Assembly (NCBI RefSeq): GCF_030122805.1
Contig: NZ_CP126080.1
Span: forward strand, 811,001-875,000
DNA from: Mesobacillus sp. AQ2
GTDB lineage: Bacteria > Bacillota > Bacilli > Bacillales > Cytobacillaceae
Reading direction: 5' to 3'
Length of the DNA: 64,000 nt
In this document: piece by piece, positions 9,655-57,405 of the stretch
Layout: each line of letters begins with the position of its first letter
Numbering within the stretch: the first letter of the stretch is position 1
The notes under the pieces: generated by a model
Told to the model about the DNA's origin: nothing
What the model saw: the letters and a program-made list of their open reading frames with translations, nothing else
Databases searched by the model: none
Translations under genes and position numbers: made by a program

Positions 9655-9970
9655 ATTGAAGCCTTGAAAATCCAGAAACAGGGAAAACAGGTCACCAAAG
9701 AAGCGTATTGAAGCCCTGAAAATCCAGAAACAGGGAAAACAGGTCACCAATGGAGCGTATTGAAGCCTTGAAAATCCAGAAACAGGGAAAACAGGTCACC
9801 AATAGACCGTATTGGCGCCCTGGAAATCCAGAAACAGGGAAAATAGGTCACCAATAGAGCGTATTGGAGCCCTGGAAATCCAGAAACAGGGAAAACGTGT
9901 CACCAATGGAGCGTATTAGAGCCGTGAAAATCCAAAAACAGAGAAAATAGGTCACCAATGTTGCGTATTG
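9655..9970. repeat. 52-bp tandem repeat array, six full units plus a degenerate seventh
   Basis: Units start at 9655, 9707, 9759, 9811, 9863 and 9915, with a decayed one at 9967; the spacing is exactly 52 bp each time. The unit reads roughly attGAAGCCCTGAAAATCC followed by agaaacaggg, aaaacaggtc and accaatggagcgt. Each holds an imperfect inverted repeat CCCTG/CAGGG. There is no coding signal. The array fills the space between the nine-repeat gene and the amidase; 9971-10071 otherwise holds only the amidase upstream region. Confidence 0.95.
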
Positions 9971-10083
9971 ATAACCGAAAACACAAGATTAGGAGAAAAC
10001 AGTTTACCCGCAGGTATAACGAAAGAGGGAATTTAATATTTTTCTAGAATGGTAGATATAAAAAATACACGGTGGTGATGGGG

Positions 10084-11583
10084 TTGGAGGGTTTCGATTA
10101 TAAGGAGCATGATGGTCTTGGGCTGGCGGAGTTAGTCAGAAGAAAAGAAGTGCAGCCTATTGAACTGGTAGAAGAAGCAATCCGGTTAACGGATTCACTG
10201 AATCCGAAGATGAATGCGGTGATCAATAAGATGTACGGGCAGGCGCGAATCGCCGCGGGGCAGCAACTGACAGGTCCTTTTGCAGGAGTACCGATTTTTC
10301 TGAAGGATATCTCGCAGGAAATAGCAGGAGAACCAATCACAGCCGGTTCTATGGCATTTTTAAAATACCGGGCAAAGGAAGATTCAGAGTATGCTAGACG
10401 CCTGCGCCAGGCTGGGTTGGTTTTCCTTGGCCAGACAAATGTGCCTGAGTTCGCCCTGGTCGCGGTGACGGAACCCGCCCACTACGGACCGACCCGAAAT
10501 CCGTGGAATCTCGATCACACTCCTGGCGGGTCGAGTGGAGGTTCAGCAGCAGCTGTTGCTTCGGGCATGGTTCCGATTGCTGGTGCCAATGATGGCGGGG
10601 GATCGATTCGGATTCCTGCAGCCTACTGCGGATTATTCGGATTGAAACCGACCCGCGGCCGCACACCGGTTGGCCCGAATTATGGACGGGCATGGCAGGG
10701 CGCTTCGGCGGAACATGTCCTTTCCCGTTCGGTCAGGGACAGCGCGGCCATGCTGGACGCCCTTCACGGACATGAAAAAGCCGGTGCATTTTCTGCCCAA
10801 CCATTTGAAGGTAGCTATCTATCAACGGCAAGCACACCTCTCGGGAAAAAGCTGCGGATAGCTTTTTCGGTGAAATCGCCAATCGGGACGAAGGTTGACG
10901 CTGATTGCCGGGAGGGTGTCCTGAAAACGGTCCGGCTGCTCGAGTCGATGGGGCACCAGATTGAAGAGGTGGAAGCGCCGGTTGACGGCCATAAAATCGC
11001 AACAAGCTATTTGACCATGTACTTCGGCGAGACGGCTGCGCTTTTAACCTCATTGGAAGAAGTGCTTGGGCGAAAAGCGACTGCTTCTGATGTGGAGCCA
11101 ACAACCTGGCTGCTCGGCTTGCTTGGCAAAGCCACTTCTGCAGAGGAATTTGTTTTAAGTTTAAGAGAATGGGACAAGGCGGCTCTAATGATGGAAACCT
11201 TCCATGAAACCTATGATTTTTACATCACACCGACAACTGCACACCCGCCGGCAAAAATAGGAGAACTGGAACCGTCACCGTCGGAAAAATTTCTGATCAG
11301 CACTGTTGGCAAACTGGGACTTGGAAGCATTTTGAAAAAGGCGGGAATAGTCGATCAAATTGCTCAAAAGAATCTGGCACGCACCCCATTCACTCAACTC
11401 GCCAACCTTACAGGGCAGCCAGCCATGTCACTGCCATTGCACCAAACAAAAGGGGGACTGCCAGTCGGAGTGCAGGTGATGGCAGCAAGGGGAAGAGAGG
11501 ATTTGCTTTTCCAGCTGGCAGGAGAACTGGAGCAATCAGAAATTTGGCAGGATGTCAGGAAGAATCCATTATGGGGAAGTTAA
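10084..11583 (+). CDS. Amidase (amidase-signature family)
   Basis: This is a hydrolase of amide bonds with the Ser-cisSer-Lys triad of the amidase-signature family. The lysine lies in FLKDIS, the cis-Ser in PGGSSGGS and the nucleophilic Ser in GGGSIRIP. The length of about 499 residues is typical. The frame opens at GTG 10072, but GGTGGTGAT (10071-10079) is itself an almost complete anti-16S match, so the more likely start is TTG 10084, about 8 bases after the GGTGG core. GatA is an alternative label, but no gatC or gatB is adjacent, so a catabolic or detoxifying amidase is more likely. Confidence 0.9.
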   Translation: MEGFDYKEHDGLGLAELVRRKEVQPIELVEEAIRLTDSLNPKMNAVINKMYGQARIAAGQQLTGPFAGVPIFLKDISQEIAGEPITAGSMAFLKYRAKEDSEYARRLRQAGLVFLGQTNVPEFALVAVTEPAHYGPTRNPWNLDHTPGGSSGGSAAAVASGMVPIAGANDGGGSIRIPAAYCGLFGLKPTRGRTPVGPNYGRAWQGASAEHVLSRSVRDSAAMLDALHGHEKAGAFSAQPFEGSYLSTASTPLGKKLRIAFSVKSPIGTKVDADCREGVLKTVRLLESMGHQIEEVEAPVDGHKIATSYLTMYFGETAALLTSLEEVLGRKATASDVEPTTWLLGLLGKATSAEEFVLSLREWDKAALMMETFHETYDFYITPTTAHPPAKIGELEPSPSEKFLISTVGKLGLGSILKKAGIVDQIAQKNLARTPFTQLANLTGQPAMSLPLHQTKGGLPVGVQVMAARGREDLLFQLAGELEQSEIWQDVRKNPLWGS

Positions 11584-11598
11584 TCAAACGTTTGATTA
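11581..11598. promoter_or_regulatory. Perfect 18-bp palindrome at the amidase stop codon
   Basis: TAATCAAAC followed by GTTTGATTA is a perfect uninterrupted 18-bp palindrome that includes the amidase TAA stop codon. It has no T run of its own, and the terminator comes 30 bp later. It could be a protein-binding site or simply part of the 3' structure. Confidence 0.4.
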
Positions 11599-11624
11599 AA
11601 TAGGATTAAACCATTGGTGATACT

Positions 11625-56371: not shown

Positions 56372-56590
56372 GTCCATTCTCCTCTCTTAACTACGGGCCA
56401 TCTTCCTTTTTAGATAAAATAAGCTGCTTTTTTGCATTGTCCATGTTTATAACCTCCTTTGTTTTAATGGGAGTGTACTAAGCACTCCATCTTCATCGTA
56501 AAGGGAAAATTTGCTAGTGTAAAGAAAATTCAATCTATTTAGTTTGCAAGATTTTTCGATATAATGAAGAAAAAAGAGGAGTGAGGCTAC

Positions 56591-57094
56591 ATGGAACAAA
56601 TAATTCATTGGGGGATTATTGAGTTTGAGCATGGCCCAATCTATATTGCAGCAACGCCTCAAGGCTTATGCTATGTTGGTTCGCCTGAGGAAGACTTCGA
56701 ACATATGGTAAAACGGTTCCCGGCCGCGGATTTCGCAGAGAATTCAGAAGCAATGGAACCATACGCAAACGAATTGAAGGAATATCTGGAGGGAGGACGC
56801 ACTGATTTTTCCCTGCCAGTGGATGTAAAAGGAACCCCATTCCAGGAAGCCGTTTGGACAGCATTGAGAGAAATCCCTTATGGTGCGACATATACATACT
56901 CCGAAATTGCCGTAAAAATCGGGAAGCCTGCCGCAGTAAGAGCAGTCGGAACCGCTATCGGCGCAAACCCGGTCCTGATTACAGTTCCCTGTCACCGAGT
57001 CATCGGGAAAAATGGGGCGATCACAGGGTATCGTGGCGGAATTGAGATGAAGCAGCATTTGTTGGAGCTGGAGAAAGCACAAAGTAAGGGGTAA
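56591..57094 (+). CDS. ogt: Methylated-DNA-[protein]-cysteine S-methyltransferase
   Basis: This suicide DNA repair protein moves the methyl group from O6-methylguanine to its own cysteine. The 167 residues contain the acceptor motif PCHRVI, preceded by VRAVGTAIGANPVLI and the helix-turn-helix GTPFQEAVWTALREIPYGATYTYSEIA. The start ATG has GAGGAGTGAGG. No AdaA is adjacent, so it is a stand-alone Ogt. A 52-bp repeat array follows it. Confidence 0.95.
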   Translation: MEQIIHWGIIEFEHGPIYIAATPQGLCYVGSPEEDFEHMVKRFPAADFAENSEAMEPYANELKEYLEGGRTDFSLPVDVKGTPFQEAVWTALREIPYGATYTYSEIAVKIGKPAAVRAVGTAIGANPVLITVPCHRVIGKNGAITGYRGGIEMKQHLLELEKAQSKG

Positions 57095-57140
57095 GGTGCA
57101 GAAGTTGGTGGGTATTAGGATATTAGTAGTAGAAAAGTAG

Positions 57141-57405
57141 AAGCTCCGCCCGAAAAAGAAGGAATCTCGAAGGTACGGTCGGAGAAAGAGAGAAGCTCCG
57201 CCCGAAAAAGAAGGAAGCTCAAGGTTACGGTCGGAGAAAGGGAGAAGCTCCGCCCGAAAAAGAAGGAATCTCAAGGTTACGGTCGGAGAAAGAGAGAAGC
57301 TGCGCCCGAAAAAGAAGGAAGCTCAAGGTTACGGTCGGAGAAAGAGGGAAGCTCCGCCCGAAAAAGAAGGAAGCTCAAGGTTACGGTCGGAGAAATGGAG
57401 AAGCT
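57141..57405. repeat. 52-bp tandem repeat array, five units plus a partial
   Basis: Units anchored on AAGCTCCGCCC start at 57141, 57193, 57245, 57297 and 57349, with a partial at 57401; spacing is exactly 52 bp. The unit is roughly aagctccgcccgaaaaagaa then ggaagctcaaggttacgg then tcggagaaagagag. Inverted arms CTCCG/CGGAG flank each unit. The remaining 57406-57560 is AT-rich and holds the upstream region of the flavodoxin gene. Confidence 0.95.

Follow-up and report, generated by a model that had tools for sequence, protein, structure and literature searches.

The window analysed here, a 64-kb stretch of the Mesobacillus sp. AQ2 chromosome (G000:C1:811001-875000; the genome is a single contig of 4,803,959 bp), contained three tandem arrays, all of which were assigned a period of 52 bp by Tandem Repeats Finder (TRF). 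Array A (9655..9971, + strand, 6.1 copies) was bordered on one side by a terminator-like hairpin belonging to the gene upstream and on the other by the following gene. It belonged to a GGTC-N19-GCCC class, with exact cores at 9690-9716, 9794-9820 and 9846-9872 (three of about six units), and was oriented with replication. Array B (18557..19444, + strand, 17.1 copies) lay between two convergent genes, with the terminator-like hairpin of one of them on each side, and beside the gene of a lipoteichoic acid (LTA) synthase. It was of a TGTC-N19-GACA class, with 15 exact cores located between 18604 and 19384 and a leading-strand purine fraction of 0.58. Array C (57131..57405, + strand, 5.3 copies) was again of the GGTC-N19-GCCC class, with the arms CGGAG/CTCCG, exact cores starting at 57177, 57229, 57281 and 57333, and a leading-strand purine fraction of 0.71.

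A preliminary description of this DNA had reported three unrelated arrays with a common period of 52 bp and a few deviating steps in the largest one. The period was confirmed, since the steps between exact words were 52 bp in four of four cases in both array A and array C, while in array B the steps between TGTCCGAA words were 52 bp in 13 of 15 cases, with one of 51 and one of 53 bp. The arrays were nevertheless not unrelated: A and C had GGTC-N19-GCCC in common, and all three were built of a 27-bp core and a 25-bp linker. Of the inverted arms ascribed to each unit, the CCCTG/CAGGG pair of array A, as read from the sequence, fell mostly outside the core, in the linker region.

The distribution of periods was determined in an unselected sample of 51 stretches (1.01 Mb, about 21% of the genome) that had not been picked for repeats and were placed at roughly regular positions, some having been moved off stretches already in the set. 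In this sample TRF found 71 non-redundant arrays, with 24 of them at a period of 52, four at 53, ten at 20 and 14 at 21 bp. Among the non-coding arrays with a period of at least 18 bp, 49 of 50 were at 20, 21, 40, 41, 52 or 53 bp and the remaining one was at 19 bp, although ordinary minisatellites would be expected to vary freely in period from locus to locus. The strong excess at 52 and 20-21 bp had been foretold by the preliminary description, whereas the periods of 40-41 and 53 bp were included post hoc. In this sample the description thus withstood the refuting condition it had set, a period distribution with no excess at 52 bp. The 17 coding arrays had periods of 15, 18, 21, 24, 33, 39 and 60 bp, as reading frames demand, plus three at 16-17 bp. 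The 52/53-bp class amounted to 28 arrays and 13,151 bp, which by extrapolation correspond to about 135 arrays occupying 1.3% of the genome. At 10.4 bp per turn, 52, 41.6 and 20.8 bp would make 5, 4 and 2 turns, which is consistent with the idea that the units face the same side of the helix. Phased A-tracts were considered as a common cause and set aside, their signal being weak (mean z of 0.39 over 33 arrays).

The anatomy of the unit was studied in a larger set composed of the window and 60 further stretches (1.254 Mb, nine stretches chosen through a search hit), which held 42 arrays at 52/53 bp. Counted without any alignment, the distance from TGTC to GACA was 23 bp in 260 cases against a median of 16, and the distance from TGTC to TGTC was 52 bp in 257 cases against a median of 17, followed by 104, 156 and 208 bp. 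The unit was therefore defined as TGTC-N19-GACA (27 bp) followed by N25. In 27 of the 42 arrays, TGTC/GACA was carried by the best 27-bp palindrome found in the consensus. Among the other 15, some consensuses were one base short and others had GGGC/GCCC, GGTC/GCCC or GGGT/ACCC, and several, including array A (4 of 8 pairs), lacked a good 27-bp consensus palindrome. The arrays thus presented extragenic palindromes with a conserved tetranucleotide, as in the repetitive extragenic palindromic (REP) sequences and bacterial interspersed mosaic elements (BIMEs). No solitary TGTC palindrome was found outside the arrays among 195 solitary intergenic palindromes in the 1.254 Mb, in a search for one shape only (outer four pairs perfect, at least seven of eight pairs, 11-nt loop). 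Arrays in L061, L067, L082 and L084 formed a further family with the arms CCCTTATG/CATAAGGG and a period of 53 bp.

With genes called by a simple hexamer model built for the analysis rather than by curated annotation, 40 of the 42 arrays showed no gene overlap; those in L031 and L079 overlapped by 6% and 27%, respectively. The gaps harbouring arrays were tandem in 26 cases, convergent in 10 and divergent in five, with one array at an edge, when all gaps of at least 100 bp comprised 362 tandem, 76 convergent and 130 divergent ones. By raw counts, convergent gaps held more arrays than the control gaps would predict (10, with about 5 expected) and divergent gaps fewer (5, with about 10 expected).

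Within arrays the length of the linker was held while its sequence drifted. The 194 linkers between exact cores of the own genome were 25 bp long in 188 cases, 24 bp in four and 26 bp in two. The 151 adjacent pairs of equal linkers differed by 699 substitutions, a length change occurred in seven adjacent pairs, and the median identity of adjacent linkers was 0.80 over 158 pairs. In ordinary non-coding DNA of the window compared with relatives, the ratios of indels to substitutions were 2:30 for the nearest relative (L095), 28:211 for L096, 24:162 for L131 and 40:273 for L099. At such rates 93-104 changes of linker length (L096, L131, L099), or about 47 (L095), would therefore have been expected. 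Across damaged cores indels were commoner, with 6 of 23 double steps being 103 or 105 bp instead of 104. The constancy of length and the 27 + 25 geometry, kept across differing arms, lent support to the earlier suggestion of a common mechanism or a selected spacing.

Other genomes were searched with the geometry probe TGTC-N19-GACA-N25-TGTC-N19-GACA, and the reversed probe served as a control. A first guess of the spacing, with an outer loop of 10-20, had returned nearly nothing, with matches in 4 of 21 genomes and at a single place in each. The final probe gave 535 matches in the own genome, where the control gave none, and within the genus it matched 20 of 21 genomes. In the family 136 of 193 genomes and 17 of 25 genera were matched (with one control match in each of two genomes), and in a sample of the order 47 of 249 genomes and 24 of 105 genera. 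Nine of these 249 genomes were family members, so that the count outside the family was 40 of 240. A GGTC/GCCC probe with the same spacings matched 19 of 21 genomes of the genus (control, 0) and 100 of 193 genomes and 11 of 25 genera of the family; its control gave 13 matches in four family genomes, nine of them in G059. The 52-bp arrays were thus found in relatives as well, where the preliminary description had advised looking for them. Arrays of other kinds were also encountered: a different type with a period of 125-126 bp, or about 12 helical turns, in L120, L124, L125 and L135 (records of Rossellomorea aquimaris and Bacillus sp. RO3), and arrays of 58 bp, not a whole number of turns, in L162 (7580-7690 and 13387-13506) and L168 (13387-13572), from Siminovitchia terrae and Bacillus norwichensis.

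The main property of the arrays, which was absent from the preliminary description, is their polarity with replication. GC skew and gene strand put the origin of the own genome close to 0 and its terminus close to 2.53 Mb. All 14 GGTC arrays of this genome had the GGTC/GCCC tag on the leading strand, as did 12 of 13 in G003 and 10 of 10 in G005, or 36 of 37 together. For G003 and G005 every array listed there by the GGTC probe was counted and the terminus was taken as the midpoint, 2.35 Mb, with which the GC skew of the loci agreed; 17 GGTC arrays from G004 and G006 were left out of the count. The sole exception, L310, agreed with its own local GC skew. In the own genome the leading-strand purine fraction exceeded 0.5 in 41 of the 42 arrays (mean 0.614) and in 27 of the 28 unselected ones, compared with a mean of 0.517 (sd 0.047) in 376 ordinary gaps. 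The orientation switched near 2.53 Mb together with the GC skew, as it does in signposts of the type of the FtsK orienting polar sequences (KOPS) and SpoIIIE recognition sequences (SRS). In the family with the arms CCCTTATG/CATAAGGG the purine polarity failed in L082 (0.49) and was modest in L061, L067 and L084 (0.55-0.58).

In leading-strand letters, the purine fraction was 0.603 over all arrays and 0.669 in the 25-bp linkers, which had a GC skew of 0.37 and an AT skew of 0.31. Mutational strand bias was ruled out as the cause, because the four-fold sites, in leading-strand letters, had purine fractions of 0.511 in leading genes and 0.525 in lagging genes, and ordinary intergenic DNA had 0.519. 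Moreover, all nine arrays that had a gene running against replication on either side still followed replication (four of four by purine, five of five by tag), and it was concluded that transcription does not set their direction. In two single-contig genomes of other genera the arrays agreed with the local skew in 9 of 11 stretches of G155 and in five of five of G162, these stretches being among the places listed and those of G162 all lying on one chromosome arm. The misfits in G155 were L343, which was contrary, and L348, at 0.48; the linker polarity in this genome flipped with the skew.

A second class of arrays, non-palindromic and likewise with a period close to a helical multiple, was represented in the window by a 20-bp array of the CGCTATA family (40396..40528, + strand). 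It was one of two further arrays that had been reported, and its period was exact (six of six steps of 20 bp), while the other, of about 21 bp, was missing from the TRF output down to a score of 30. Orientation with replication was observed in six of seven arrays of the CGCTATA family and in six of seven of the CGACCAC family, the 14 of 30 arrays of 20-21 bp that carry the two family words; the CGACCAC family was not polar by purine. Arrays of the latter family, 21 bp in period with one of 40 bp, occurred in L031, L038, L050, L079 and L086, one of them within a called gene. The only other array in the window with a period above 15 bp was a 39-bp repeat (28928-29015) within the open reading frame 27985-29067; its unit holds TCGGACAAAACGACA, which by eye is like the core-linker junction of array B.

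Beyond the tag, the arms varied between arrays (CGAA, AAAA, CTTCAT, CGTATG, TCATAG, CAATAG and more) and stayed complementary. Pairs 5-8 of the stem were Watson-Crick in 80% of cases over 63 array consensuses from the own and related loci, compared with 44% ± 3% when the right arms were dealt among arrays (2000 trials, none above 55%). Slid registers gave 15-43%. Pairs 9 and 10 were formed in 45-47% of the consensuses, which puts the stem at 8 to 10 bp and the loop at 7-11 nt. Within 69 arrays the number of double compensatory changes was 13, where slid registers gave 1, 1, 2 and 0, and single arm changes led to G.T or A.C in 108 cases and to other mismatches in 40.

Such arms would be expected if the units were selfish hairpins coupled to replication. 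The tagged palindromes would fold in the single-stranded lagging-strand template, on the purine-rich strand, be recognized there, and be copied or inserted in the manner of IS200/IS605 insertion sequences with an orientation fixed by the fork, the arrays then growing by slippage or unequal exchange. Besides the joint changes of the arms, the conserved tetranucleotide and the strict polarity spoke for this, since a fork-set orientation is a feature of IS200/IS605-like elements and was found in 36 of the 37 GGTC arrays; IS608 and ISDra2 target the lagging strand according to PMC6006769. Elements of this type are also cut by a HUH enzyme at a tetranucleotide next to the hairpin. It was further favoured by the presence or absence of an array at one locus between species, by G.T mismatches that were not in excess over A.C on the gene sense strand (21 against 33, with a sign agreement between pair positions within arrays of 9 against 11), and by seven matches to PF01797 (Y1 transposase) in the own genome. 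In the family as a whole, this domain was present in 165 of 193 genomes, among them the own one. It was not found in the array-rich genomes G016, G019 and G020 (506, 63 and 519 probe matches, respectively), and a transposase of the type associated with REP sequences (RAYT) was accordingly rejected as a required partner. The lack of solitary TGTC units, none in 1.25 Mb, also told against selfish hairpins, as did helix-multiple periods and a fixed linker length, which are unexpected for single-stranded DNA. Viral contigs yielded 19 stretches with one match each, about what chance would give for 16 fixed bases by a rough estimate, and a viral origin was rejected. We regard selfish hairpins as the second candidate, close behind the protein-bound arrays proposed below, and as rather unlikely in themselves.

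The turnover of single arrays was followed at the gap beside array B. The LTA synthase of related loci was identical to that of the window by 100% in L095, 97% in L096, 92% in L098, 91% in L097 and 90% in L099. Ten close loci were compared over 400 bp of this gap. A 52-bp array with diverged units was found in L095, L096 and L131, and a remnant of 2.4 copies in L099; within the 400 bp no array was found in L097, L098, L100, L101, L102 and L103. In L095 the array was again placed between two terminator-like hairpins of convergent genes. Altogether, 10 of 80 loci found by the LTA synthase gene had such arrays, 11 with a period of 52 bp and one with a period of 53 bp. It appears that individual arrays are gained and lost, whereas the class as a whole is retained.

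Some of these data could be accommodated without any selection, if a single ancestral 52-bp satellite had kept its period by unequal exchange and its arms by quasi-palindrome correction. Array B measured 888 bp in the window and 772 bp in L095 despite the identical LTA synthase, two joined arrays with different arms were seen in L039, so that sequence families adjoin, and the indel rate over whole arrays was near the ordinary one, all as expected of satellites. Tags that are conserved across an order amid changing arms and linkers are, however, at odds with neutrality, and so are the constant linker length, a polarity far exceeding the mutational skew, and the 20-21 bp arrays, which lack such a palindrome and are polar in two families. 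A neutral origin was therefore judged improbable.

Highly expressed RNA genes are co-oriented with replication, and the arrays might analogously act as RNA, in that purine-rich transcripts with tandem hairpins, made in the leading-strand direction, would bind a protein or stabilize or end transcripts. The co-orientation, the hairpins and the mismatches in leading-strand letters (G.T 59, A.C 39) were in favour of this. Counted per array, however, G.T and A.C stood at 14:12 on the leading strand and at 4:10 on the gene sense strand, and neither strand reference clearly supported an RNA. The orientation ignored the flanking genes in all nine opposed cases with a known replication direction, a promoter-like excess upstream was absent (mean best score of 8.56 against 8.59, 41 arrays), no Rfam match was found in the window at gathering scores, and array B lay between two terminator-like hairpins. 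An RNA element was considered the least probable of the explanations, and highly unlikely.

We tentatively prefer to read the arrays as polar, helix-phased landing arrays for a DNA-binding protein, coupled to replication, although the odds stay below even. Each 52-bp unit consists of a 27-bp dyad, with tetranucleotide tags at its edges and complementary arms, followed by a 25-bp purine-rich linker, and a dimeric protein would bind each dyad. With five helical turns to a unit, dimers on adjacent units would share a face of the helix and be in contact, and an array might function only as a whole; the exact spacing and the occurrence in arrays only point to contacts between neighbours, and periods at helical multiples are compatible with contacts made on a single face. 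The conserved tag would imply sequence recognition. Direction would come from the asymmetry of the linker, joined in the GGTC class by that of the tag. Because the direction of the arrays matches that of the fork, their function would be tied to replication, fork passage or segregation and not to transcription. The complementary arms would indicate a structure or a correction templated by the opposite arm.

Several observations weighed against such landing arrays. No protein is known or was found for them (no co-occurrence scan over all proteins was made). A protein reading the bases does not explain arms that are variable and yet complementary, and arms that change and stay complementary point to hairpins or to arm-templated correction; the pairing is loose besides, with 148 single changes that disrupt a pair or make it weaker, far more than the 13 double compensatory ones. 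Leading-strand purine was above 0.5 in 65% of ordinary gaps too, if far less strongly. Alignment of whole arrays to the TRF consensuses gave 235 indel columns to 2,127 substitutions, a ratio of 0.11 that is near that of ordinary DNA; we think this figure is inflated by errors in consensus length and by paired insertions and deletions, and it does not by itself show depletion, so the claim of constant length rests on the linker-only count. The presence of the arrays is also patchy. G011, of the same genus, had no match to either probe; this genome is rated 100% complete, and the TGTC class occurs in the rest of the genus (20 of 21 genomes). Finally, since species differ in having an array at the LTA synthase locus, the array there is not essential.

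Taken over the chromosome, the arrays may form a system of the Bacillales, a suggestion we consider somewhat less likely than not. About a hundred polar, helix-quantised arrays per genome, with two or five turns per unit, would mark the direction of replication. One or a few DNA-binding proteins with a part in replication, nucleoid organization or segregation would read them cooperatively, with the sequence turning over and the tag, spacing and polarity being kept. A single geometry, an estimated 130 arrays and the polarity suggest a chromosome feature that is new to description. No description of such arrays was recognized in the titles and abstract beginnings of open-licence literature, and no passage on them was found in the part of a survey of periodic repeats in 7006 genomes that was consulted (PMC6344855). 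Occupying about 1.3% of the genome with five-turn spacing, in the direction of the fork and with the same geometry in many genera, the arrays would point to an overlooked protein or process. They offer a testable case of replication direction written into non-coding DNA and of a repeat that loses its sequence yet keeps its geometry. If they were a selfish single-strand element instead, its spread would take the form of arrays and, in some hosts, would proceed without a Y1 transposase of its own.

Among known systems, tandem direct repeats are shared with plasmid iterons, which span about two helical turns and stand at one origin, and with bacterial minisatellites, the periods of which are scattered; the single origin site and the scattered periods, respectively, set these apart from the arrays. 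KOPS and SRS, which are read by the DNA translocases FtsK and SpoIIIE, and Chi are single words of 5-8 bp oriented with replication. The arrays resemble them in being so oriented in both chromosome arms and differ in being long intergenic arrays of dyads. A palindromic repeat of about 27 bp with a spacer of about 25 bp at a constant period recalls clustered regularly interspaced short palindromic repeats (CRISPR). The linkers within an array are alike, however (median 80% identity), and are not unique spacers, and it is the arms that vary; the 52-bp period also falls below the CRISPR period range of 58-81 bp used in the portion of PMC6344855 consulted.

The closest likeness in form is to the REP/BIME group of enterobacteria and pseudomonads, including REPINs and the RAYT (TnpA-REP) system, where short extragenic palindromes with a conserved tetranucleotide occur in many copies and sometimes in regular clusters. 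In the arrays, by contrast, the tags are base-paired at both edges, the units run head to tail at 52 bp and are polar with replication, solitary TGTC units were not found in the 1.254 Mb sampled, and no Y1 transposase is needed. The CGTC REPs have a stem of 8-9 bp and often a TGTC tag, and are said to lack a dedicated transposase; their tag is unpaired and at one end, their loops are of 4-5 nt and clusters are rare (PMC3733652). Five phyla are named for them there, Firmicutes not being among these and the word not occurring in that text (PMC3733652). The arrays share with the CGTC REPs a similar stem size and, at times, the TGTC tag, and are distinguished by a TGTC that pairs with GACA at both edges of the palindrome, around a loop of 7-11 nt.

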